Shown here one piece after another: positions 12,765 to 41,491 of a stretch of DNA of 44,312 nucleotides (position 1 is its first letter; the number at the start of each line of letters is the position of its first letter). Location: positions 1 through 44,312 of the forward strand of contig CANIFU010000019.1 in assembly GCA_947466965.1 (NCBI GenBank). The letters run 5' to 3'. This DNA is from Bacteroidota bacterium (GTDB taxonomy: Bacteria > Bacteroidota > Bacteroidia > 2-12-FULL-35-15). The notes under the pieces were generated by a model. It had not been told where the DNA came from and did no database searches. It worked only from the letters and a program-made list of their open reading frames with translations. The position numbers and the translations under genes were made by a program.

Positions 12765-13655
12765 TTAGGTGTTTTTACTAATTACACGCTGAATGTATCC
12801 CTTAAATTCTTTTGAGCCTATAACATGTACTTCCTCTAAAAAACCCATTACAAATCGCCCTGGCGCTTTAAAGCTCTGAACGTTTGCCTTGAAATAATAC
12901 TTGCCTGTATCGGGAATTACTTTCATGAATGCCGCACTCATTGGGTACTCTTCTTTAAGGAGTAAGTAAGCTCTCATCGACATTTGCAATTCAATTTCCT
13001 TATTCAAGCTTTTCCCCTGAAAACCAAAAATATCAGGCTTGTAAAATTCATGAAGCGCTTCATGCTTCATCGGTGTTTCTAGCACTTCTATACTACCTAT
13101 TCGCTCGATATTGAAATACTTGTTGAGCTTTGTTTTTATTTCAAAAGCACAAATAGCATTGTAATTATCGGTAAAGCAGATAGGCTCGATCAAACGATCG
13201 GTAACACTCTGACTATTGGCTGAACTATATCCTTTTATTATAAGTTGTCTCTCCTCAATGATTGCCACTGAAATTTGCTCTACAATTTTAGCCAGGTGTG
13301 CTTTGAAAACACTTTCTGCTCCTAATTGAACTTCGCTGGATTGTCGTACTTTTTGCAAAACACTTTGCGCCAATTGATTTTTTTTTCCAGTCGATAAAAT
13401 CAGTTTTTTTAGGTAGTCTACTTCTTGTGGTGTAAATGGAATATGATCAATGGATGTTGAAACGGCTATAAATAGTTTGTTGTTGCTATCTTTCTCAATA
13501 TTGAAGCCAAGGTTCGTTAGCAAATCGAGGTAACGGTATACTGTTCTCTCGGAAGTGTCAAGGAAAGTTTCGATGCTTCTTACCGATTTTGCTGGTCTTG
13601 CCTTCAAATAATTTATTAGCTGAAATAGCCTGTATATTCTATTCTGATTAAACAT
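12765..13655 (-). CDS. WYL-domain transcriptional regulator (HTH + WYL)
   Basis: 296-aa regulator. N-terminal DeoR-like winged helix (about residues 1-60: NRIYRLFQLINYLKARP and a recognition region with SERTVYRYLDLLTNLGFNI), a helical middle, and a WYL-type ligand-sensing domain (about 125-225: a beta barrel including RQLIIKGYSSAN, RLIEPICF, AICAFEIKTKLN), then a C-terminal extension. Start taken at the ATG 13655 since the earlier ATG (13685) would run through an inverted repeat that recurs elsewhere without coding. The paired operator just upstream (13669-13724) suggests autoregulation. Confidence 0.82.
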   Translation of the reverse strand: MFNQNRIYRLFQLINYLKARPAKSVRSIETFLDTSERTVYRYLDLLTNLGFNIEKDSNNKLFIAVSTSIDHIPFTPQEVDYLKKLILSTGKKNQLAQSVLQKVRQSSEVQLGAESVFKAHLAKIVEQISVAIIEERQLIIKGYSSANSQSVTDRLIEPICFTDNYNAICAFEIKTKLNKYFNIERIGSIEVLETPMKHEALHEFYKPDIFGFQGKSLNKEIELQMSMRAYLLLKEEYPMSAAFMKVIPDTGKYYFKANVQSFKAPGRFVMGFLEEVHVIGSKEFKGYIQRVISKNT

Positions 13656-13668
13656 GTTTACAAATATT

Positions 13669-13724
13669 TTGACAAATAAAGTCAAATGAATGAAGCAAAC
13701 CTAATGATTGACCTTATTTGACAA
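13669..13724. promoter_or_regulatory. Paired 17-bp operator candidate, copy A
   Basis: TTGACAAATAAAGTCAA (13669-13685), 22 nt, then TTGACCTTATTTGACAA (13708-13724). The two arms are near reverse complements of each other, and the first is itself a dyad TTGAC-N7-GTCAA. It lies between the divergent WYL-regulator and SHOCT genes. The same arrangement with the same 22-nt spacing recurs at 31521 and 40378. Binding by the WYL regulator is inference. Confidence 0.6.
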
Positions 13725-13766
13725 GTTTATTTATTTCTTTTGTATTGAACCTAAAAATATGTCAGT

Positions 13767-14326: not shown

Positions 14327-14472
14327 TAGCTTAAAGTATAATAACGTGTTCTTTCTAATATTTTTGCGCGAGTGGTTTATGTATTTTTAAATGGAGACCA
14401 GCGACCATTAAAAAAACGGGGCGACACCGAAAAGCCTTATGAGTAGGACAACAATAAAATACAAATAGTAAA
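14327..14472 (+). promoter_or_regulatory. Promoter and 5' leader of the 14473 lipoprotein gene
   Basis: A -7 box TATTTTTG lies at about 14359-14366. The untranslated leader then carries AACGGGGC (14415-14422) and GACAACAATAAAA close to the start. A similar leader (AACGGGGC, then GACAATAAAA) precedes the unrelated secreted-protein gene at 29345. Role unknown. Confidence 0.4.
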
Positions 14473-14883
14473 ATGAAAAAAATAACAATTTCTTTTGTTG
14501 CGATTATTATCGCAGTAATTACATTTTCAAGCTGTTCACATCGACTTATTGACTTTACTGTAATAAGTTCTAAGAATGTTTCCTTGAAATTTGACAAGGC
14601 TCAAGGGAAAGCTGTATCAGGTAAGAGTATGGGTTTTCTCGGATTTGGAGCAAGTATTAAAGACGCTATGGACAAAGCTCTACAAAGTGCAGGTCCTGAT
14701 TATGACCTTTTAGTTGATGGAGTAGTTAGAATAAATGACTATTTTTTTGTTTCAGGCTACAAAGTTGAAGGAACTGCAATCAGCACAAGTAAAATCAAAG
14801 CGTCTTTAGGTGTGAAGGGTTTTGAAGACTGGTGCAAAGCAAATAATGTTTTTGACCCGACTACTGCAACCGTTCAAAATTAA
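14473..14883 (+). CDS. Small lipoprotein of unknown function
   Basis: 136 aa; lipoprotein signal with a hydrophobic core and lipobox-like FSSC (Cys at about residue 21), so anchored in the cell envelope. The mature part has a glycine-rich stretch (GKSMGFLGFGASIKDAMDKA) and a repeated beta pattern (DYDLLVDGVVRINDYFFVSGYKVEGTA, given here in outline). Similar orphan lipoproteins are common in Bacteroidota. Followed by a strong terminator, so monocistronic. Confidence 0.7.
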   Translation: MKKITISFVAIIIAVITFSSCSHRLIDFTVISSKNVSLKFDKAQGKAVSGKSMGFLGFGASIKDAMDKALQSAGPDYDLLVDGVVRINDYFFVSGYKVEGTAISTSKIKASLGVKGFEDWCKANNVFDPTTATVQN

Positions 14884-15066: not shown

Positions 15067-15474
15067 CTAATGTGTAAAGATCAATTCATTTCCTCTTTCT
15101 CTATCCCCATATAAAAAAGCCAATTGCCCAAATTGTGATGCAATTGAATGGGCCGCTTCTAAGTCGATGTTTACAATAAAAAAAGATGCCTCCGACCATT
15201 TTTCATTTTTTGAAATACCGATTCCGGGGTACGTTTCATAGTTAGCCGCGTTGAATTGTGCTAATAATTCACTATTTCGAATTTTGTTTTGAGCGTTTGA
15301 TAAAATAGCTGGAAGAGGATTCCATGCAGTAATAAATGCCCAGGATTCAATTTTTGGAAAATAGTTTAATAATTCAGAGGGGTACTCTCCAATTTTTAAT
15401 GTAATCTCTTTTTTAAGATGAATAATATAGCTGGTTTCTATGAATTCGTTTTTAAGTAGATCTTTTTCTGTCAT
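15067..15474 (-). CDS. DUF3293 domain protein
   Basis: 135-aa cytoplasmic protein matching DUF3293: the block WAFITAWNPLP, then NKIRNSELL, the PGIGI region, W.EASFFIVNIDLEAA and a closing ASQFGQLAFLYG. No catalytic motif is recognised. First gene (most upstream codon 15474) is 30 nt from the stop of the gene at 15505 and all genes from 15067 to 17382 run on the minus strand, which suggests loose clustering. Confidence 0.75.
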   Translation of the reverse strand: MTEKDLLKNEFIETSYIIHLKKEITLKIGEYPSELLNYFPKIESWAFITAWNPLPAILSNAQNKIRNSELLAQFNAANYETYPGIGISKNEKWSEASFFIVNIDLEAAHSIASQFGQLAFLYGDRERGNELIFTH

Positions 15475-19065: not shown

Positions 19066-20208
19066 TTAATTTGTAAACGTCAAAAGTTGAATGATTTTAT
19101 TATCTATGACTTCCCAAGGAAATTCAATTCTTCCGAAATGCCCGTACGAAGCTGTTTTCAGATATATAGATTGACGTAGGTTCAACGTTCTTGCAATACC
19201 ATTAGGTGTTAAGTCGAATATTTTACGAATCTTCTCAACAATAACTTCCTCATCTACTTTTCCAGTTTCGTGTGTATTTACATAGATAGAAGTAGGGTCA
19301 ACAACTCCAATCGCATACGAAAGTTGAACGGTACATCTATCAGCTAAGCCGGCAGCTACAATATGCTTTGCGATATATCGTGCCGCATATGCTGCGGAGC
19401 GATCTACTTTGCTGGAATCTTTTCCTGAGAAGGCGCCACCACCATGCGGACAACTTCCACCATAGGTATCCACAATTATTTTTCTTCCTGTGAGGCCAGT
19501 ATCTCCATGCGGACCACCAATTGTAAAACTTCCAGATGGATTTATAAGAAATTCAGGTTTACTATCGCTGATGTATTCGTTAATTACTGGCAATATGATT
19601 TGCTGAATCACTTCTCGTCTGATTGTATCTTGCGTAACATTTGCCTTGTGTTGTGTGGATACAACTACCGTTTCGATCGCAACAGGAATATCGTTTTCGT
19701 ATCTCACTGTAACCTGTGATTTTGCATCTGGTAATAACCATTCCAAGGTTCCGTTTTTACGAAGTTCGCTTTGTCGAACCATTATTTTATGAGCAAGAAG
19801 TATCGGTAGAGGCATCAATTCTTTCGTTTCATTTGTTGCATACCCAAACATTAAGCCTTGGTCGCCAGCACCACCATCAAGCACACTTTTGTTTATTTCC
19901 GGGCTTTGTTGATGGAGTAGATTGATGTATGCCGCTGTGTGGCAATCAAAACCATAATCGGGATGCGTATAGCCGATTTCTCGGATGATTTCTTTTGCAA
20001 TGGCAACAGCATCCACTTTGGCATTGGACGTAATTTCTCCTGCAATAATTAATTGTCCGGTTGTAATGAGGCATTCGCAAGCCACTTTCGAATGCGGATC
20101 AATTTTTAGATAGGCGTCAAGAATGGCATCAGAAATCTGATCAGCCACTTTATCTGGATGTCCTTCTGAAACAGATTCACTTGTAAATAAGAATTTTCTA
20201 TTTTTCAT
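19066..20208 (-). CDS. metK: S-adenosylmethionine synthetase
   Basis: Makes S-adenosylmethionine from methionine and ATP. 380 aa, close to the E. coli length. Signature motifs: [21 protein letters not shown] split around residues 14-34 (SEGHPDK then [11 protein letters not shown]), [12 protein letters not shown] (113-124), and the P-loop-like [19 protein letters not shown] near 255. All expected catalytic residues seem present. It lies 20 nt after a small 104-aa gene, and both are downstream of a structured leader (20599-20961) that is repeated near the right end of the window. metK is normally a core gene, so its presence next to accessory DNA may mark the edge of the island or a second copy. 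Confidence 0.95.
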
Positions 20209-20228: not shown

Positions 20229-20543
20229 TTAAATTGAACTCATTGCTTCCTGATAACTTGGTTCTTTTTTTAAAGTTGCTTCTTTATGAAGTTCTTTATA
20301 ATCATCAATGACTACTTTTCTAAATCGAATATTGAAAAAAGAAGGTTCATTGCATTCGTCATCACTGTTATTCACTATTTCATTTAGGAAAATACTGTTT
20401 TGTAATTCGTGTATTTCCCTCACAGTATAAATTTCATAAAGTTTCGGCCAAGCTACCATGAGGTGAGAACCGTATGCTGTTTTGTCAAATTTGTCATTGA
20501 TGCAAATGATTTTTTCACCAATTTTAAATACGGGATAGTCCAT
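20229..20543 (-). CDS. Small protein of unknown function upstream of metK
   Basis: 104 aa with a compact beta-rich start (FKIGEKIICINDKFDKTAYG and YEIYTVREIHEL) suggestive of an SH3-like barrel, followed by an acidic loop and a helical tail (IDDYKELHKEATLK). Similar small KOW/SH3-like proteins occur in phages and plasmids. Cotranscription with metK is likely (20-nt gap). Downstream of the left copy of the structured leader. Confidence 0.6.
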   Translation of the reverse strand: MDYPVFKIGEKIICINDKFDKTAYGSHLMVAWPKLYEIYTVREIHELQNSIFLNEIVNNSDDECNEPSFFNIRFRKVVIDDYKELHKEATLKKEPSYQEAMSSI

Positions 20544-20598
20544 ACTATTTATTTTTTGTTAACGATTATTTTATAAGTTTTAGTTGTTCAAATCGATA

Positions 20599-20961
20599 CA
20601 TTAAACGATTTGAAAGAAATAATAAACGCACTCAACCATACTCTATTTTTTTATAGCCTTTCATAGCAACTTTTTTATTGTTGCATCCTTAAATAATAGT
20701 GGAACTGAACCTTTTTTTGGCGAAGCGCCCACATTATCTTACCACCGTTGTGTTCTTACTCGGTTGGTACTCATTAAAGAGTTCGGAATGCAGATGAATA
20801 ATTAAAGAACAAAATACTGATCACTCAGATCATAAATTTCAAAAAAAATGAATAGGGGATAAATGAATTGTTTTTGGTTTGATTCCCCTTATCGCTTTAC
20901 CACCGTGGTGTTCACTCGGTTGGTATCCTTTCGGATTCTTGATAATACAGTGTTAAACGTT
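20599..20961 (-). ncRNA. Structured leader candidate, left copy (tandem three-way-junction RNA)
   Basis: About 360 nt, an inverted near-copy (roughly nine in ten bases identical by eye) of 39511-39871. Read on the minus strand it holds two similar domains: P1 TTATC/GATAA, hairpin ATCC-GAAA-GGAT, and a stem ACCAACCG...CGGTGGT with loop AGTGAACACCA; then P1' ATTAT/ATAAT, hairpin ACTC/GAGT and a stem ACCAACCG...CGGTGGT with loop AGTAAGAACACAA. A GGCG-CTT-CGCC hairpin follows. Located 55 nt before the small gene and metK. Not a riboswitch class I recognise. Confidence 0.55.
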
Positions 20962-22081: not shown

Positions 22082-24052
22082 ATGATTGATGCAAAAAAAA
22101 CCGTTTTTCTTCCCCTTGACGAACGAGTAACAGAATTATATGTTGGCTATGTTCATGATGGACAACTGATGAAAGATATAGATGAAGTTGACATGTATAC
22201 CGAAATTGTTCATTATGATTCGGATTATTCCTATTCAATCTACCAAAAGGTAATTATTGTTACCATTCTTATTCCATTTCTTTTTTTATTTATTTTAATT
22301 GTACTCCTTGCTTTGCCATTCAAAAAGTTTGATGTTGTTTGCGATTCTCTTGTACGTTATAACGCTATTATTTGGCCGTTCCTGTTCAATAAAAAAAAGA
22401 AAAAACGGATAGAGAAAAAGAGATTAGCGCAATATGAGCATTTTGAAAGAGAAGATGTACCAGAATTCTTAAAGCATTGTAAAGGCCTTCAGGTGCGTGT
22501 TTATCTCTATTCGTATGTTGTCCCTTCGCCTCAAGAACAATTTAAAATAGATGCCTTAATTAATAATAAATTAATTTTTTCCTTTCATCTCATTAATCGA
22601 TTATCGGATTTAAGTTCCTTGTTGAAAGAAGATACTATTTCCCTGCATAATTCCTTGCTTTTAATAAAAAGTCCCGATGAACAAGTGGAGGCCAATTTGC
22701 TCGGTTTTAATACGGAAGATCGATACTTGCGCAATGTAGCACTGTTAAAAAAAAGAAAATTTAAATCGGAAGGCGTTCAAAATGAATTGGAGTGGAATAG
22801 TAGTGATGTAATCATTCATTTTAAAATGAGTATCGACTACTATCTAAGATCAATAAGGAATAAGTATTTACAAAGCAATACAATCGTTTTTATTGATGAT
22901 ACGAGCGATGTTTTTCTAAGTAAGTACTTACAGGATAATCTGGATGCTATCAACGAAAAACTAGAATTAAAAGGATTTAAACTTATACATTTTTATTCGA
23001 ATAGTTTTTCCGAATTGTTCGATTCTGAAGGTGTTTCAGCGTCTCTTCGCTATCGTTTTCCTTTTTTGTATTCGATTCCGGATATAAAATTGGATGCGTT
23101 GATTTCCGATCTTTTTAAATATACCTCAGCTGAACAGTTTTGTAAATTAATTCTCGAGGAACTTCAGCTGCCCCATTTTAAAAGGCCAGCGCTACTGAGG
23201 AGTATTTCAGATGGATATGTTAATACAGCAAATATATTTACGTATAAAACAATTGAATATACCTCAAAGGAGGATCTCGATCGTTTTTTTGATTGGTATA
23301 TCAATCAAGTAAAAATACCGCATGCAAATATCGCATTCAAAATGTCAGATATCCCGTATGAAAATGATACGAATCCGGATATTTCATCTAAAAAAAGACG
23401 CTTTGATATTCAATACAGTTTATCAGGTAAGCCTGAAGAGTACGATGCCGACAATGTTTTCAGAATAGAATCAACAACCCTATCGGAAGAATTGAAATTA
23501 AAAATTGATGAAATTCAAAAACGAGGCAATGTTGGTGTTTTAACAGAAGTATTGCTGTACATGTTAGAAAAATTAAAAGAGGGTAATCCTGATTTATTGA
23601 AAAACATACAGCCACTTCTGGATTCTAAGGAATCGGTAAAAAAGAATGCCCAATTGAGTCACTTGTCGATTGATGAAAACTATAAAATAGTACTTACTGA
23701 TTTTGGGAATATTGAAATAAAAATGCATGCTTTACCGAAGGCTGTATTTATATTGTTTTTGAGATATCCAGATGGAATTCGTTTCAAAGAACTCTATATG
23801 TATAAGAAGGAACTGCATGAAATTTATAACAAACTCACAAATAAATCCGATAAAAACGTAATCGACCGTGCTATTGAGGATTTGGTTGACATGACAAACC
23901 CTTCCATTAATCAGAAATGTGCTCGAATTAGAGAGGCATTTAGAAACTACTTGGATGAGGACATTGCTCGGTTTTACTTCATTTCAGGCGATAATGGTGA
24001 ACCCAAGAAGATTAAATTACCGCGGCATTTGATGACGATCCATTTTAAATAG
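22082..24052 (+). CDS. Membrane protein with C-terminal winged-helix-like domain
   Basis: 656 aa. N-terminal segment, one long hydrophobic region (about residues 57-80, VIIVTILIPFLFLFILIVLL), then a lysine-rich juxtamembrane stretch (KKKKKRIEKKR, about 104-114), a large cytoplasmic domain of unknown fold, and at the C-terminus (about 535-656) a domain with the pattern IEIKMHALPKAVFILFLRYP and KCARIREAFRNYLDE, ending in LPRHLMTIHFK. The same domain forms the whole of the 24379 protein. The pattern (hydrophobic helix-rich, charged RIREAF) resembles a winged-helix regulator of Bacteroidota, which is inference. Could be a membrane-tethered sensor/regulator of the retron-adjacent genes. Confidence 0.65.
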   Translation: MIDAKKTVFLPLDERVTELYVGYVHDGQLMKDIDEVDMYTEIVHYDSDYSYSIYQKVIIVTILIPFLFLFILIVLLALPFKKFDVVCDSLVRYNAIIWPFLFNKKKKKRIEKKRLAQYEHFEREDVPEFLKHCKGLQVRVYLYSYVVPSPQEQFKIDALINNKLIFSFHLINRLSDLSSLLKEDTISLHNSLLLIKSPDEQVEANLLGFNTEDRYLRNVALLKKRKFKSEGVQNELEWNSSDVIIHFKMSIDYYLRSIRNKYLQSNTIVFIDDTSDVFLSKYLQDNLDAINEKLELKGFKLIHFYSNSFSELFDSEGVSASLRYRFPFLYSIPDIKLDALISDLFKYTSAEQFCKLILEELQLPHFKRPALLRSISDGYVNTANIFTYKTIEYTSKEDLDRFFDWYINQVKIPHANIAFKMSDIPYENDTNPDISSKKRRFDIQYSLSGKPEEYDADNVFRIESTTLSEELKLKIDEIQKRGNVGVLTEVLLYMLEKLKEGNPDLLKNIQPLLDSKESVKKNAQLSHLSIDENYKIVLTDFGNIEIKMHALPKAVFILFLRYPDGIRFKELYMYKKELHEIYNKLTNKSDKNVIDRAIEDLVDMTNPSINQKCARIREAFRNYLDEDIARFYFISGDNGEPKKIKLPRHLMTIHFK

Positions 24053-24378
24053 CGGGATGCTAGTGTTCCCTTATTGATAAAATAAACTGCAAGGTTGCAG
24101 AAAAAAAAATCCCGTCTTTTCTTGATTACTTTTGTTTTTTCATCTAGATGTTCATTAATTGGATGTTCTAGAGGATTACAAGCTCCTTTATTTCCTTTTT
24201 TTTAGAAATAGATACAGTATAAATGGTTCAAGGTTGTTAGGAAAACCCTAATTGCAATTAAAACCAGTAAAATCGAATTGTTTTAAATATTTAACGATTG
24301 GAAAGAAGTAGTAAACATTTTATCAATGCATGTAAATAAACATATTTAATATTTTTTCCTTGCTTCAAACAAATTTAT
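24053..24378. other. Intergenic region duplicated downstream
   Basis: 326 nt between the 22082 and 24379 genes. It holds the dyad promoter and a leader. Its later part (about 24207-24285) and the last 15 nt before the ATG (GCTTCAAACAAATT) are clearly homologous to 24967-25045 and 25132-25142, so the spacer itself was duplicated along with the downstream domain. Confidence 0.6.
24087..24134 (+). promoter_or_regulatory. Dyad-controlled promoter for the 24379 gene
   Basis: CTGCAAGGTTGCAG (24087-24100), 26 nt, then TACTTTTG (24127-24134). The dyad centre lies about 33 nt before the -7 box. It is followed by a 240-nt leader before the ATG at 24379. The upstream flank ATTGATAAAA is shared with the copy at 31680. 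Confidence 0.65.
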
Positions 24379-24819
24379 ATGGAACAAAATATACAAAATA
24401 AATGTACCGATGTAGCCATATTGAGCCAGTTGCTGATTGACAAAAACTGTAAAATATTTCTTTCTGATTTTGGGAATATTGAAATTAAAATGCACGCTTT
24501 ACCTAAAACTGTATTTATCCTATTTTTGAGATATCCGGATGGAATTCGTTTCAAAGAACTCTATCTATATAAGAAGGAACTTCTTGAAATCTATAATGTG
24601 GTTAGCAATAAATCCGATAAAAATGAAATTGAGCGCGCCATTAACGATTTAGTTGACTATAAGAACCCCTCTATGAACCAAAAATGTGCAAGGATAAGGG
24701 AGGCCTTCAGAAACTACCTCGATGAGGACACCGCTAAGTTTTATTTTGTTTCAGGCTATAATGGAGGACCAAAGAATATTAAATTGCCCAGGCATTTGAT
24801 TACGATGCATTTTAAATAG
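24379..24819 (+). CDS. Stand-alone winged-helix-like protein, paralogue of the 22082 C-terminus
   Basis: 146 aa: about 30 N-terminal residues, then the same roughly 120-residue domain as the 22082 protein's C-terminus, with about 80 percent identity by eye (IEIKMHALPK, FILFLRYPDGIRFKELY, NQKCARIREAFRNYLDED, LPRHLI). No membrane segment. The first residues MEQNIQNKCTDVAI match the start of the DnaB-like protein (MEQNIKNKFTDLAI), so its leader and N-terminus were duplicated too. Likely a DNA-binding regulator; its own dyad promoter could be an autoregulatory target. Confidence 0.65.
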   Translation: MEQNIQNKCTDVAILSQLLIDKNCKIFLSDFGNIEIKMHALPKTVFILFLRYPDGIRFKELYLYKKELLEIYNVVSNKSDKNEIERAINDLVDYKNPSMNQKCARIREAFRNYLDEDTAKFYFVSGYNGGPKNIKLPRHLITMHFK

Positions 24820-25142: not shown

Positions 25143-26282
25143 ATGGAACAAAATATAAAAAATAAATTTACCGATTTAGCCATTCAGATGGAAAAGGACG
25201 TAAAATATGATCAGTATTCAGATCGTGAGATCATAAATAAATGGACGACTCTATTTCTGAACATGAATAATGAATTTAGGGGTGGCATAAAACAACTCAC
25301 ATTGAAGGAGCTTTATGCAGACACCTTAAGTGCTGTAATTAATAAGTCAGAAGGCAATTTATTATTTGATGCTGTTCCATCCGGTTTAGAAGCGCTGGAT
25401 AGAATTATAGGTGGATTTCCTGTTGGTGAATTAACAGTTATCGGTGCTCGTCCTGCAATGGGTAAAACAGCTTTTCTTTTAACCGTGTTGGCAAATTCAA
25501 TTGTAACTAAAAATGATCCGATTGCCTTCTTTTCATTAGAAAATTCATCGCAATCGATTATGCTGCGACTGATGAGCATCTTTTCCCATCAATCGAAGTA
25601 TAAAATTGTAACATCGATAAAGAATGATCTTGAAAAAAAATTATTTATGGACACAACTAAAACGATAGAGGATGCAAATCTAGAGATCGTAGATGATTGT
25701 TTTACAATGGATGACATTATTTCACGTACTCATTTTTTAGTGGAAGACAAGGGTGTAAAACTCATTATCATTGATTACTTGCAATTGATTCAAACAAAAA
25801 GCAAAATGAACCGCGAGCAGGAAATCGCAAAGATTTGCCGCGAATTGAAGGCGATAGCAAGAAAATACAATATAGCTATTTTTGTTAGTTCACAACTCAG
25901 CCGAAGTGTTGAGATGCGCGGTGGAGATCGGAGACCACAGCTCTCTGATTTGAGAGAATCTGGTGCAATAGAACAAGATGCAGATAAAGTTTTATTCCTA
26001 CATCGTCCTGAATATTACAATGTGACGGAAGATGAACAAGGTGATAGTACCATTGGGATTGCAGAATTTATCGTGGCCAAAAATAGAGGAGGAGCGGTGG
26101 ATTCAGCAAAAGTTAGGTTTGTACCACAATGTGGCAATTTTCAAGATTTGGATAGTACTTCCAATTTTCATAATTATGATACATTAGAATCCTTTAAAAA
26201 TATTCGGTCTACTGAATTTTTACCAGACTTTCCGAATAAAAGTGCTGATATTTCTGGGATAGATGACACAAATCCCTTTTAA
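25143..26282 (+). CDS. DnaB-like RecA-fold ATPase/helicase lacking the DnaB N-terminal domain
   Basis: 379 aa. The DnaB C-terminal motor domain spans about residues 75-330: Walker A GARPAMGKTA (101-110), Walker B LIIIDYLQL (207-215), SSQLSR (249-254) and the DnaB signature SDLRESGAIEQDADKV (268-283). The usual N-terminal domain of DnaB, which binds DnaG, is missing; in its place is a short 75-residue segment starting MEQNIKNKFTDLAI that matches the start of the 24379 protein. A replicative DnaB is about 500 aa in this phylum, so this is not the housekeeping enzyme. It ends only 20 nt before the retron RNA and is on the same strand, so it may share its transcript and may act as the retron's partner or effector. 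Alternative: a phage-type helicase. Confidence 0.85.
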   Translation: MEQNIKNKFTDLAIQMEKDVKYDQYSDREIINKWTTLFLNMNNEFRGGIKQLTLKELYADTLSAVINKSEGNLLFDAVPSGLEALDRIIGGFPVGELTVIGARPAMGKTAFLLTVLANSIVTKNDPIAFFSLENSSQSIMLRLMSIFSHQSKYKIVTSIKNDLEKKLFMDTTKTIEDANLEIVDDCFTMDDIISRTHFLVEDKGVKLIIIDYLQLIQTKSKMNREQEIAKICRELKAIARKYNIAIFVSSQLSRSVEMRGGDRRPQLSDLRESGAIEQDADKVLFLHRPEYYNVTEDEQGDSTIGIAEFIVAKNRGGAVDSAKVRFVPQCGNFQDLDSTSNFHNYDTLESFKNIRSTEFLPDFPNKSADISGIDDTNPF

Positions 26283-26479: not shown

Positions 26480-27517
26480 ATGAAAGAACGTACATTTAGT
26501 AAGTATATCATTGATGCTTTTCAATTCAAAGAATTGAAGGGTGCCTATGCTTTGTCTGAATTGTTGAAGATTAACTTTTCCCCTTTCATTCAAGAAATAG
26601 AAAAGGCAAGCTATACCGAATTTACCATTCCAAAAGCAACAGGTGGTAAAAGAACCATTGAAGCGCCCAATCAAAATATTCTTTTTATTCAGAAAAGATT
26701 AAATCATTATTTACAAGCCGTCTATTACACCATAAAACCCGATGCCGTTTATGGTTTTGTACCCAGTGTGTACGATGGCTATTCGCCTAAAACAATTGTC
26801 ACCAATGCTGAAAATCATTTAAATAAAAAGTATTTACTAAACATTGACTTAAAGGACTTTTTCCATTCTATTTCAGCCAACGATGTCCGCAGTATATTTT
26901 TAACAGCACCCTTTAATTTTTCGGAAGATTTATCCACCTGTATTGCATTAATCTGTTGCTGGAAAAAACGCTTGCCAATGGGTGCAGCCACATCTCCGGT
27001 ACTCTCGAATTTATATTGCCTTCCATTAGACAGGCAATTGATTAAATGGGCTAAAAAATACAGTGTGACCTATACACGTTATGCCGATGATCTTACTTTT
27101 TCTTCTGATGTAAAGTTGGATGAGGAGCAGATTTTGGAGGTCAGAAAAATTATTACGGATGCAAATTTTACCATTAATGAACGAAAGTTTCGAATGCAAA
27201 GTAGCTTCAAAAAACAAACGGTAACGGGAATAAAGGTAAATGTAAAAACGAATGTAGATAGACGTTATATTCGAAATATTCGGGCGGCATTGCATGATAT
27301 AAAAAAGAACGGAATAGAAAAAGCATCTTTGAACTATTACAAGCAAAAAAAGATTGACGAACGAATGGTGAAAACGCTATTGTTAAGTATTCGTGGGAAA
27401 GTAAACTTTATTGGTCAGGTGCGAGGAGCGGATGATTTGATTTATCAAAAGTTACAGCGTGATTTGTCAGTTTTTCTCCCCATCTCCAAGAACAAGAATA
27501 AATTGAAAAAAAAATAA
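26480..27517 (+). CDS. Retron reverse transcriptase
   Basis: 345 aa, polymerases of this family reverse-transcribe the msd part of the adjacent RNA to give msDNA joined to RNA by a 2'-5' bond. Retron-specific motifs are present: NAENH at 109-113 (NAxxH) and TVTG at 247-250 (VTG), together with IDLKDFF (122-128), PMGAATSP (166-173) and the YADD active site (201-204). Length and motif spacing are standard, and no toxin or effector domain is fused. The RNA precedes it immediately. Its effector is therefore expected to be a separate gene, with the DnaB-like ATPase upstream or the zinc-ribbon and repeat genes downstream as candidates. Confidence 0.95.
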   Translation: MKERTFSKYIIDAFQFKELKGAYALSELLKINFSPFIQEIEKASYTEFTIPKATGGKRTIEAPNQNILFIQKRLNHYLQAVYYTIKPDAVYGFVPSVYDGYSPKTIVTNAENHLNKKYLLNIDLKDFFHSISANDVRSIFLTAPFNFSEDLSTCIALICCWKKRLPMGAATSPVLSNLYCLPLDRQLIKWAKKYSVTYTRYADDLTFSSDVKLDEEQILEVRKIITDANFTINERKFRMQSSFKKQTVTGIKVNVKTNVDRRYIRNIRAALHDIKKNGIEKASLNYYKQKKIDERMVKTLLLSIRGKVNFIGQVRGADDLIYQKLQRDLSVFLPISKNKNKLKKK

Positions 27518-29995: not shown

Positions 29996-30183
29996 TTAAA
30001 TTTTGATGTGTTTAAAAATTATAGATAGGGAAAGAAATAACAACTAGGTATTGAAAATGTGAACTTTGTCTTTTCAGCATAAAATAAATATAAGTTGTAT
30101 TTTATTTGATTTACTTTTAAACCAAAAAAAGCTACTATAAAAGGACTTATTATAAATAAAAAAAATTATTTAAAACTTTAAAT

Positions 30184-30428
30184 ATGATAGGCTTTATCGG
30201 AGATATACACGGATATGGAAATGAACTGGAAACTTTACTTCAGAAGTTAGGGTTTACAAAAAAAAGTGAGCATATGCCCATCCGGAGAGAAAAGCAGTAT
30301 TCGTTGGAGAATATATTGATTGCGGTCCTCAAATAAAAGAAACTTTAGAAATTGTTAAAGCAATGGTGGATAGTGAAAATGCCATTGCATTAATGGGTAA
30401 TCATGAATTGTTAATTGTCTTGTGTTTG
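30184..30428 (+). pseudogene. Truncated, frameshifted copy of the PPP phosphatase gene (5' part)
   Basis: Begins ATG ATA GGC TTT ATC GGA like the intact gene at 40580 (MIDFIGDIHG) and is closely similar for about 240 nt. One G is missing near 30268 (GTGAGC instead of GTGGAGC), which breaks the frame, and homology stops just after the NHE motif at about 30420. About 50 nt of upstream sequence are also similar to the upstream of the intact gene, so it is a duplicated and decayed locus. Confidence 0.85.
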
Positions 30429-31262: not shown

Positions 31263-31520
31263 CCATAGTATTCTAGCCGTCTTTTTTTGATTTTTGATAT
31301 TCTGTAAAGATCTAAAGATTTTTGACTCTCTGCTGGAAATATTACACCTTCAGACCACATAAGATCAATAATAAAGAGAGTTCTGGAGTTTGTCTTAATT
31401 AAATTGATTTACTAGAATTATCATAAAAAGTTGTTCGTTTTATAAAATACTTCTCCCCGCTTATTCCTGTTTTCTGTCGTTTCATTATGAAAATTCTGAT
31501 TAAGCTTGCCGCTAAATATA

Positions 31521-31576
31521 TTGACAAATAAAGTCAATTTAATGAAGTTATCTGAATGATTGACCTTATTAGGCAA
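31521..31576. promoter_or_regulatory. Paired operator candidate, copy B
   Basis: TTGACAAATAAAGTCAA (31521-31537), 22 nt, TTGACCTTATTAGGCAA (31560-31576). The first arm is identical to copy A; the second has two changes. In front of a decayed phosphatase fragment at 31849, while copy C precedes the intact gene, so the block B-plus-fragment is probably a decayed duplicate of copy C-plus-gene. Confidence 0.6.
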
Positions 31577-31679
31577 AAATAAGTACTTGCTTTGGCGAGT
31601 TATTCATTTTTATAAATAATCGATGAGCAAAAAATATTTAATTATCGGTATCTATCATGTTTCTAATTGATAAAAATAG

Positions 31680-39510: not shown

Positions 39511-39871
39511 ACGTTAAACGTCATATTATCAAGAATCCGAAAAGGATACCAACCGAGTGAACACCACGGTGGTAAAGCGATAAGGGGAATCAAACCAAAA
39601 ACAGTTCATTTATCCCCTATTCATTTTTTTTGAAATACATGATCTGAATGATCAGTATTTTGTTCTTTAATTATTCATCTGCATTCCGAACTCTTCAATG
39701 AGTACCAATCGAGTTTGAACACAACGGTGGTAAGACAATGTGGGCGCTTCGCCAAAAAAGGTTCAGTCCCAATGTTATTTAAGGGTGCAATAAAAAAATG
39801 TTGCAATGAAAGGCTATAAGAAAATAGAGTATGGTTGAGTGCATTTATTATTTCTACTAAATTGTTTAATG
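39511..39871 (+). ncRNA. Structured leader candidate, right copy (tandem three-way-junction RNA)
   Basis: Near-identical inverted copy of 20599-20961. First domain: P1 TTATC (39526-39530) / GATAA (39579-39583); hairpin ATCC (39535-39538) / GGAT (39544-39547); stem ACCA-CCG (39548-39555) / CGG-TGGT (39567-39573). Second: hairpin ACTC (39690-39693) / GAGT (39700-39703); stem ACCA-TCG (39704-39711) / CGG-TGGT (39725-39731). The change CCG to TCG keeps pairing as a U-G wobble, supporting RNA structure. 61 nt before a small gene. Confidence 0.55.
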
Positions 39872-39932: not shown

Positions 39933-40187
39933 ATGAAAAAAGAAAATCAAATGGCAGTTCGTTTCAGAACCCAGTTAGCTGAACTAAGTAAGGAAGAACT
40001 GTTAGAAATATTTAATAAAGAAGTGGGAGGTCGAGGATGGACTTCAGCGCGTGCTTTTTTCTTGGTAGAACTTGGAAATGCTTTTAGAAAATTAGAGGTC
40101 GATATTTCAGAGGTTACGAATTATAGTGGAGGGTTTAGTCTGAATAGGAAAGCTATATTGAAAGCAAACAAGCTGGTTGTGATTTAA
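39933..40187 (+). CDS. Small protein of unknown function downstream of the right leader
   Basis: 84 aa from the ATG at 39933 (an in-frame ATG at 39879 adds 18 residues of low-complexity leader). Helical: MAVRFRTQLAELSKEELLEI, then FNKEVGGRGWTSARAFFLVE, then LGNAFRKLEVDISEVTNYSG. The pattern is that of a small helical DNA- or protein-binding protein, not recognised. The gene stands in the same place relative to its leader as the 20229 gene does to the left copy, but the two proteins are not similar. Confidence 0.55.
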   Translation: MKKENQMAVRFRTQLAELSKEELLEIFNKEVGGRGWTSARAFFLVELGNAFRKLEVDISEVTNYSGGFSLNRKAILKANKLVVI

Positions 40188-40579
40188 ATGTATTTGAAAT
40201 CAAAAGAGATATGTAAAGGAGGATCGGGAAGCGTATTTAATTTGTAATAATGGGGATTGTTTGAATTTAATCAAGTAATCTGATTAATTATTGAAAATAT
40301 CGCCAAGTGAGACCTTATTTAATCGAAAAAAATGAATTTAGTTTTAGAAATTTTAATTTAATGCGTTTATAAATATTTTTACAAGTAAGCTCAATTATGT
40401 GAAGTTATTCAAATGATTGACCTTATTTGACAAAAACAATGAGTTACTTTGAATAATTTTATATTAAAGGTTTTTATGAAGAGGAAGAAACTTATTAGCT
40501 AAAATGAACAAAAAGGAATAAAGCACAGCACCTGAAAAAGTGCTTATTCCATACAAAAAATTTATTTTGAACCTGAAAT
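40188..40579. other. Intergenic region with the copy-C operator
   Basis: 392 nt without a gene; AT-rich. The only recognisable element is the paired operator at 40378-40433; a stem around AAGTGCTTATTCC is too weak to call. About 50 nt before the phosphatase start resemble the upstream of the decayed copy at 30184. Confidence 0.5.
40378..40433. promoter_or_regulatory. Paired operator candidate, copy C
   Basis: TTTACAAGTAAGCTCAA (40378-40394), 22 nt, TTGACCTTATTTGACAA (40417-40433). The second arm is identical to that of copy A; the first has four changes. Sits 147 nt before the phosphatase gene. Confidence 0.55.
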
Positions 40580-41491
40580 ATGATAGACTTTATAGGAGAT
40601 ATACACGGATATGCAAATGAACTGGAAGCTTTACTTCAGAAGTTAGGGTATGCCAAAAAAAGTGGAGCATATGCCCATCCGGAGAGAAAAGTAGTATTCG
40701 TTGGAGATTATATTGACCGTGGTCCTCAAATAAAAGAAACTTTAGAAATTGTTAAAGCAATGGTGGATACTGAAAATGCCATTGCATTAATGGGCAATCA
40801 TGAATACAACGCCTTGTGTTTTCATTATCAAGAAACAGAAGGAGGCCATCTTCGGAAACATGAAATAAAAAATATTATTCAACATTACGAAACACTCAAG
40901 CAGTTTCAGAACAAACAAAAAGAATACGAATCCTATTTAGAATGGTTTAAATCCTTGCCTTTGTATTATGAAACGGATAGTTTTAGAGCGGTTCATGCCT
41001 GTTGGGATAATAAGAATATCCAGTACCTGAGAGACAATTTAATCAATGACCGATTAACGGACGATCTTATTTATCAATCTGTTAAAATAGGTACCCCTTT
41101 AAATAGGGCAATTGACCAAACTTTAAAAGGAAAAGAGATGAAAATGCCTTCAGGAAATTTCTTTACAGATAAGGATGGTACAAAAAGAGAAGATATCAGA
41201 ATAAAGTGGTGGGAAAATCCTGCACAGATGACGTATAAATCAATTAGTATAGAACCCATTGATCATTTGCCAGAACAAGCAATTGTAATTTCGGAACTTA
41301 AATCGCTGGATTATTATCCTAAAGATGATAAAAAAGTTTTTTTCGGACACTATTGGTTAAAAGGGGAGCCTTCTCTTTACAAAGAAAATATTTGTTGCCT
41401 AGACTATAGCGTTGCTAAAAATGGCAAGCTTGTGGCTTACAGACTGGATGAGGAAAATAGGTTGGACAATGCTAAATTTGTATATGTTTAA
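40580..41491 (+). CDS. PPP-family metallophosphatase (Ser/Thr phosphatase or ApaH-like)
   Basis: 303 aa. Catalytic motifs of the PPP family: GDIHG (6-10), GDYIDRGP (42-49), GNHE (72-75), and later HACWD near 145 and FGHYW near 255 as the metal-binding histidines. This fits symmetric diadenosine-tetraphosphate hydrolases or protein phosphatases; the substrate cannot be decided. No signal peptide, so cytoplasmic. Two decayed copies lie at 30184 and 31849. Confidence 0.88.
   Translation: MIDFIGDIHGYANELEALLQKLGYAKKSGAYAHPERKVVFVGDYIDRGPQIKETLEIVKAMVDTENAIALMGNHEYNALCFHYQETEGGHLRKHEIKNIIQHYETLKQFQNKQKEYESYLEWFKSLPLYYETDSFRAVHACWDNKNIQYLRDNLINDRLTDDLIYQSVKIGTPLNRAIDQTLKGKEMKMPSGNFFTDKDGTKREDIRIKWWENPAQMTYKSISIEPIDHLPEQAIVISELKSLDYYPKDDKKVFFGHYWLKGEPSLYKENICCLDYSVAKNGKLVAYRLDEENRLDNAKFVYV

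Follow-up and report, generated by a model that had tools for sequence, protein, structure and literature searches.

What is the repeated, structured RNA that lies in front of a small gene and metK in this Bacteroidota genome, and which genes might it control? The window, i.e. the whole stretch of 44,312 nucleotides analyzed here, shows the motif CCAACCGAGT...CACGGTGG twice in a row on the minus strand within 20961-20599, with the second motif strand reading ...CAACGGTGG in aptamer 2. A sequence-only reading had described it as a tandem riboswitch-like leader with a further copy at 39511, an arrangement that holds, the second tandem lying on the plus strand; it had also found the motif unlike any familiar SAM riboswitch core. 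This last point is contradicted by Rfam, whose SAM-I/IV model RF01725 is the best-scoring model of its clan at all four sites, each of them above the gathering score (cut-off) of 41.1 bits. A new aptamer class is thereby ruled out, and the motifs of both leaders belong to the known SAM-I/IV riboswitch family. The four aptamers, which are also the only RF01725 matches in the 3.1-Mb genome, are the following:

20860-20950, minus strand: SAM-I/IV aptamer 1 of the left tandem (RF01725, 48.5 bits; model R1, 80.3 bits)
20703-20796, minus strand: SAM-I/IV aptamer 2 of the left tandem (RF01725, 53.7 bits; model R1, 89.5 bits)
39521-39612, plus strand: SAM-I/IV aptamer 1 of the right tandem (RF01725, 47.1 bits)
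39676-39769, plus strand: SAM-I/IV aptamer 2 of the right tandem, with U at core position C47 (RF01725, 42.8 bits)

The fold comprises P1, P2 and P3 plus an external P4 located outside P1, so that the three-way junction proposed earlier is present, although not as a bare junction. The L3 loop and the 3' tail are complementary in all four aptamers (GUGAA/UUCAU, GAAC/GUUC), and a pseudoknot between them is likely; a family-wide automated test with crude loop extraction gave p=0.06. P2 has no internal loop and consists of 4-5 bp closed by a loop of 4-6 nt, unlike the long P2 with internal loop and kink-turn that is the hallmark of SAM-I. Minimum free energy folding by itself is uninformative for the leader (z about -1.2 to -1.4). 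Structural conservation, as suggested from the sequence, is instead evident from covariation among 20 related aptamers of the phylum, where the 23 pairs of the Rfam structure are paired in 91% of cells and 71 cells show double changes, a count matched by none of 500 shuffles. Sliding the partner strand by 1-3 columns lowers the pairing to 27-50%.

Concerning the ligand, a published list (PMC6890682) gives the SAM-I nucleotides that lie no more than 5 A from SAM, and of these A6, U7, G11, A12, C44, A45, A46, U57, G58 and A87 are kept in the four aptamers. There are two exceptions: both second aptamers have U in place of C8, as do other family members, and the right one of them also has U in place of C47. 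The latter corresponds to the U-G wobble noticed before in the right copy, which is real (CCAACC to CCAATC). A SAM-related ligand, as proposed from the position before metK, is by far the best guess. An improbable alternative is that one of the two aptamers, the second being the likelier, now recognizes a related compound such as S-adenosylhomocysteine or a different SAM derivative, the tandem thus reading two signals. Aptamer 2 does show CCGA instead of AAGA at J1/2, together with the C47 change of the right copy, but J1/2 varies in other SAM-I/IV RNAs, the SAM-contact positions are kept, and in the left copy aptamer 2 outscores aptamer 1.

The left and right leaders, 18.6 kb apart, form an inverted duplicate made up of a 219-nt stretch with 96% identity and an 88-nt stretch with 88%. 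Of 395 genomes from the class 33 contain RF01725, as do 34 of 395 from the phylum, and when the loci of its matches were searched with the model built here, same-strand pairs less than 250 nt apart appeared only in the window (twice), G006 and G071, each of these leaders conserving two complete aptamers of one class; as these searches covered samples of the class and of the phylum, with a restricted set of candidates scored in each genome, weak second aptamers elsewhere may be missed. Some genomes carry SAM-I/IV riboswitches 450-1400 nt apart, mostly one before each gene, and at locus L112 (2773-3963) three of them, about 450-550 nt apart, each precede a small gene. The table of a 2022 review on tandem riboswitches (PMC9481103) lists SAM-I and SAM-II doubles, with SAM-I/IV only beside SAM-II, and no prior account of a homotypic SAM-I/IV tandem, or of an accessory metK such as that described below, was found in the open-access papers searched. 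Judged from that one table and these papers, the homotypic head-to-tail SAM-I/IV pair, with its three related modules, looks new. G006, G071 and the two further leader-carrying genomes, G136 and G226, are metagenome-assembled.

Three genes lie downstream of the two leaders:

20229-20543, minus strand: gene A, 104 aa, without a Pfam or NCBIfam match
19066-20208, minus strand: accessory metK, a complete methionine adenosyltransferase of 380 aa (TIGR01034, 565 bits, cut-off 309)
39933-40187, plus strand: gene B, 84 aa, led by the right tandem, with a homologue of 74% identity in G006

The leader-associated metK is a second, accessory copy beside a housekeeping metK in every leader-carrying genome. 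The other metK of the window genome (G000) is found on contig C1, and all five leader genomes have two metK genes, as do G013 and G084. The leader-associated copies of the five form one clade (support 0.99), and between the window and G071, which belong to different families, they are 81% identical, compared with 75% for the housekeeping copies. Four of 395 class genomes contain close members of gene A, always together with SAM-I/IV and metK, and there are distant phage relatives without the riboswitch. A viral origin of the leader was considered and rejected, as it has no match in viral contigs and RF01725 is missing from the phage relatives of gene A.

Gene B, present in G000 and G006 only among 36 genomes of the genus, had been taken for an unrelated gene, which the sister genome rules out: G006 shows the same tandem, gene A and metK, and there gene B follows metK after 0.6 kb, within one series of minus-strand genes. 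The window has it 19 kb from metK, behind the right tandem, and the synteny of G006 therefore indicates a split cluster with one tandem leader for each part. This context weighs heavily against the motif being a mobile repeat or some structured RNA other than a riboswitch, which we regard as very improbable; an inverted duplicate 19 kb apart would suit a mobile repeat, but the Rfam matches, the gene association and the confinement of the four genomic matches to the two leaders do not. The two outcomes that had been named in advance as speaking against a riboswitch, lack of any gene association and lack of covariation in the stems, were both looked for, and the motif proves to be gene-associated and its stems covary.

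A DUF3293 protein is encoded at 15067-15474 (minus strand), a DUF3293 homologue lies near the accessory metK of G084, and similar proteins are found in G136, G226 and G013, on which grounds the DUF3293 protein may be part of the metK cluster. No PADLOC match to a known defence system was obtained for MetK, gene A, gene B, the transglutaminase-like protein or DUF3293. Locus L110 (4192-8001) has a SAM-I/IV riboswitch followed by a MoxR-type ATPase, a metallopeptidase/VWA-like gene and a divergent MetK-like protein (S-AdoMet_synt_N, E 5e-12); G347 (L109) has a similar set in which metK is a shortened, truncated gene. At L117 (455-3339) the riboswitch precedes an ORF of 165 aa, an HTH regulator and ORFs resembling DNA methyltransferases.

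As to the wider surroundings, a DUF805 RNA (RF03081, 81 bits) at 14386-14453 (plus strand) ends 20 nt before an ORF of 136 aa (14473-14883) with a lipoprotein-like N-terminus, and in L108 (1180-1215) a DUF805b RNA is located just upstream of another such ORF. A reverse transcriptase of the retron/defence-RT type at 26480-27517 (plus strand), whose best PADLOC match is RT-Protease_XI (E 6e-99, covering the RT part of the model only), adjoins a DnaB-like helicase ORF (25143-26282). Partial duplicates of gene segments, at 23648-24714 and at 30159-30408 versus 40555-40805, include a C-terminal piece at 80% identity and a stretch in common with the start of a metallophosphatase gene (40580) at 89-93%, which suggests a rearranging island. 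A 102-nt repeat is present in three copies, 72-75% identical, at 13641-13742, 31493-31594 and 40350-40451.

The segment 20961-20599, originally given as the leader, does hold both motifs, but the leader extends to about 20589 and includes, after aptamer 2, a hairpin, an ORF of 10 codons and a second hairpin. The ORF is found in both copies:

20632-20664, minus strand: left leader ORF, 10 codons, MKGYKKIEYG followed by TGA, conserved in six leaders of five genomes
39806-39838, plus strand: right leader ORF, 10 codons, MKGYKKIEYG followed by TGA, with one synonymous difference from the left

Its ATG is located 0-2 nt past the hairpin that follows aptamer 2. The peptide is MKGYKKIEYG in both window copies, MKGYKKIDYG in G006 and MKFFKKIDYG in G071, with the more distant MIHYYNFHYG in G136 and MKHYFNFHYG in G226, where a single aptamer precedes the ORF. 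The closest pairs differ solely at third codon positions, the more distant ones at all positions; as this pattern of substitutions is not clean, the evidence for coding is that the length, the start and stop codons and the terminal Tyr-Gly do not vary. A pattern built from the start, end and flank of the ORF gave four matches in a 257-Gb genome collection, all just 3' of a SAM-I/IV aptamer and all in genomes from which the pattern had been designed; by a rough estimate a few chance matches were possible in 257 Gb, and none appeared. In viral contigs it gave no match. A conserved leader ORF after the second aptamer, found so far only beside SAM-I/IV aptamers, looks new.

Translation of this short ORF, conserved over three lineages, is what we infer from the sequences. 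The contrary, unlikely but deserving the most weight among the alternatives, is that the 10 codons are untranslated, either conserved as RNA or left over from a gene that formerly began at this site, and that regulation is confined to transcription or to the downstream gene. The ORF is indeed very short, its window version folds as RNA too, and each downstream gene has a start of its own, about 75 nt or more beyond it. Retention of the same length, the in-frame ATG and TGA and the final Tyr-Gly in three lineages argues for a peptide, as do the third-position changes of the closest pairs and the location of the ORF at the site of the regulated start codon in other SAM-I/IV leaders.

How ligand binding could be transmitted to these genes was analyzed through the pairings that compete with the aptamers, defined by the following elements:

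20841-20898, minus strand: alternative hairpin A of aptamer 1, P1 3' strand plus P4 5' strand (20898-20883) pairing with 20863-20841, ending in U8
20804-20832, minus strand: hairpin B, UGAUC-UGAGU-GAUCA (20832-20818), followed by a U-rich tract (20817-20804)
20693-20737, minus strand: alternative helix 2, AUAAUGUGG (20737-20729) pairing with CCACUAUUAU (20702-20693)
20666-20688, minus strand: anti-P1 strand GGAUGCAAC (20688-20680) and hairpin GCAAC-GUUGC (20684-20666)
39787-39804, plus strand: hairpin GCAAU-GUUGC before the right leader ORF
20589-20612, minus strand: hairpin CAAAUCG/CGAUUUG between the leader ORF and the first gene

The key element is the anti-P1 strand GGAUGCAAC, which pairs with the P1 5' sequence UGCAUU and overlaps the left arm of the GCAAC-GUUGC hairpin, directly before the leader ORF. 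Alternative helix 2 is also present in G006 and G071, and the hairpin that follows the ORF reads AAATTG/CAATTT in the right copy, a compensatory change. Bacteroidota mostly make no use of a Shine-Dalgarno site.

Strand pairing was evaluated over 45 non-redundant SAM-I/IV loci of the phylum, comparing the cognate downstream sequence with those of other loci, in exploratory tests that were designed after viewing examples and that include several loci which had prompted the idea. The P1 5' strand pairs with its own next 90 nt at -9.96 kcal/mol versus -6.61 kcal/mol for swapped sequences (45 loci, p=5e-5; control region p=0.9), and the P1 3' strand gives p=0.001 over its next 50 nt (45 loci; control p=0.39). 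For the anti-P1 strand plus 14 nt against the start-codon region the values are -8.7 versus -5.56 (n=33, p=5e-5). In forced-state folds of six leaders, imposing P1 brings the probability of the pre-ORF hairpin to at least 0.98, against at most 0.12 when the anti-P1 pairing is imposed. The latter, ligand-free fold is more stable by 0.3 to 11 kcal/mol in the six leaders, these energies containing neither ligand nor pseudoknot terms. Around the leader AUG, four of the six are predicted to become more accessible when P1 is absent; the exceptions are the left window copy and G071. The start of the leader ORF is predicted to be sequestered in the ligand-bound fold, where the hairpin before it forms together with P1.

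Computation shows that the anti-P1 strand has two mutually exclusive partners, the P1 5' strand and the strand close to the start, a pattern that fits an OFF switch at the level of translation. The computed pairings further suggest that this choice of the downstream anti-P1 strand between P1 5' and the start-codon region is a family-wide platform, which looks new. As modelled, the platform of module 2 is strongly supported, and that of module 1, for which hairpins A and B are the evidence, is less clear; the alternative pairing of the aptamer 1 P1 5' strand is weak in the window and in G006.

Hairpin A excludes P1 and P4, has the same pairing in G006 and carries compensatory changes in G071; it may be a terminator or simply belong to the ligand-free fold. 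Because it ends in U8 and competes directly with P1, it would, as a terminator, make aptamer 1 an ON switch. The two aptamers would then be opposed, aptamer 1 terminating without ligand and aptamer 2 being OFF, with expression at intermediate SAM only. We consider this option rather unlikely. It agrees with a GC-rich hairpin followed by UUCAUUUUUUUU, with the compensatory change in G071 and with the use of the P1 3' strand; however, similar pairings of that strand are common in single SAM-I/IV leaders, including those of ordinary metK genes, the U run in such leaders matches the A-rich J3/4, and an ON switch on metK is unexpected. Hairpin B is a possible terminator of the ligand-bound state. 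All of its five pairs are kept, as AGAUC/GAUCU in G006 and AAGGA/UCCUU in G071, yet it is short, its tail is only U-rich, and scans of the left leader for sigma-70-type promoters and simple terminators found nothing, leaving hairpin B unflagged.

Taken as a whole, the data favour a model in which the homotypic SAM-I/IV tandems together control the accessory SAM-synthetase cluster as a SAM-OFF system, which we consider probable. Binding of SAM to aptamer 2 would close P1 and free the anti-P1 strand, and the GCAAC-GUUGC hairpin would then form against the AUG of the leader ORF. With the ORF untranslated, expression of gene A and metK, or of gene B behind the right tandem, would fall, by lost coupling or polarity. 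Aptamer 1 would probably add a transcriptional stop at hairpin B, in a bi-mechanism arrangement, this being the least certain step. At low SAM the accessory metK and its partner genes would be expressed. A broader picture, possible but distinctly more tentative, is that of an accessory SAM-synthetase module that is mobile or undergoes rapid rearrangement and has its own SAM gauge, where the tandem stops transcription and then blocks the conserved 10-residue leader peptide, and where unlinked pieces (metK, small proteins) obey one SAM switch, as a dedicated response to SAM depletion and not a housekeeping function.

These results remove a false lead, that of a new aptamer class, and add a homotypic SAM-I/IV tandem with a predicted riboswitch-controlled leader peptide. 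They also provide a testable general rule, namely that SAM-I/IV riboswitches of Bacteroidota may shut genes off through an anti-P1 strand common to the aptamer and the start-codon region, and point to a recurrent second metK with small partner genes under predicted SAM control.

With the SAM-I/IV riboswitches as originally described (RF01725; Weinberg 2010, PMC2864571) the present leaders share the aptamer structure, the binding core, a P2 without internal loop and the association with SAM and methionine genes, and differ from them in having two aptamers head to tail, a leader ORF after the second, and a metK that is accessory rather than housekeeping. The same-ligand two-sensor leaders of the 2022 review (PMC9481103) are alike in their predicted transcriptional and then translational control, whereas here both aptamers are of one class, SAM-I/IV. 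The tandem SAM-I riboswitches (164 doubles in PMC9481103) offer the same homotypic doubling of a SAM sensor, but SAM-I has the P2 internal loop and kink-turn and another periphery. Finally, the M. tuberculosis ppe2 B12 riboswitch (PMC11260477) controls a short translated uORF on which the downstream gene depends. A short upstream ORF of this kind, with riboswitch control and translation predicted in the present case, is common to both systems, while ligand and class are different and the ORF described here, of 10 codons, is separated from the gene by about 75 nt or more.
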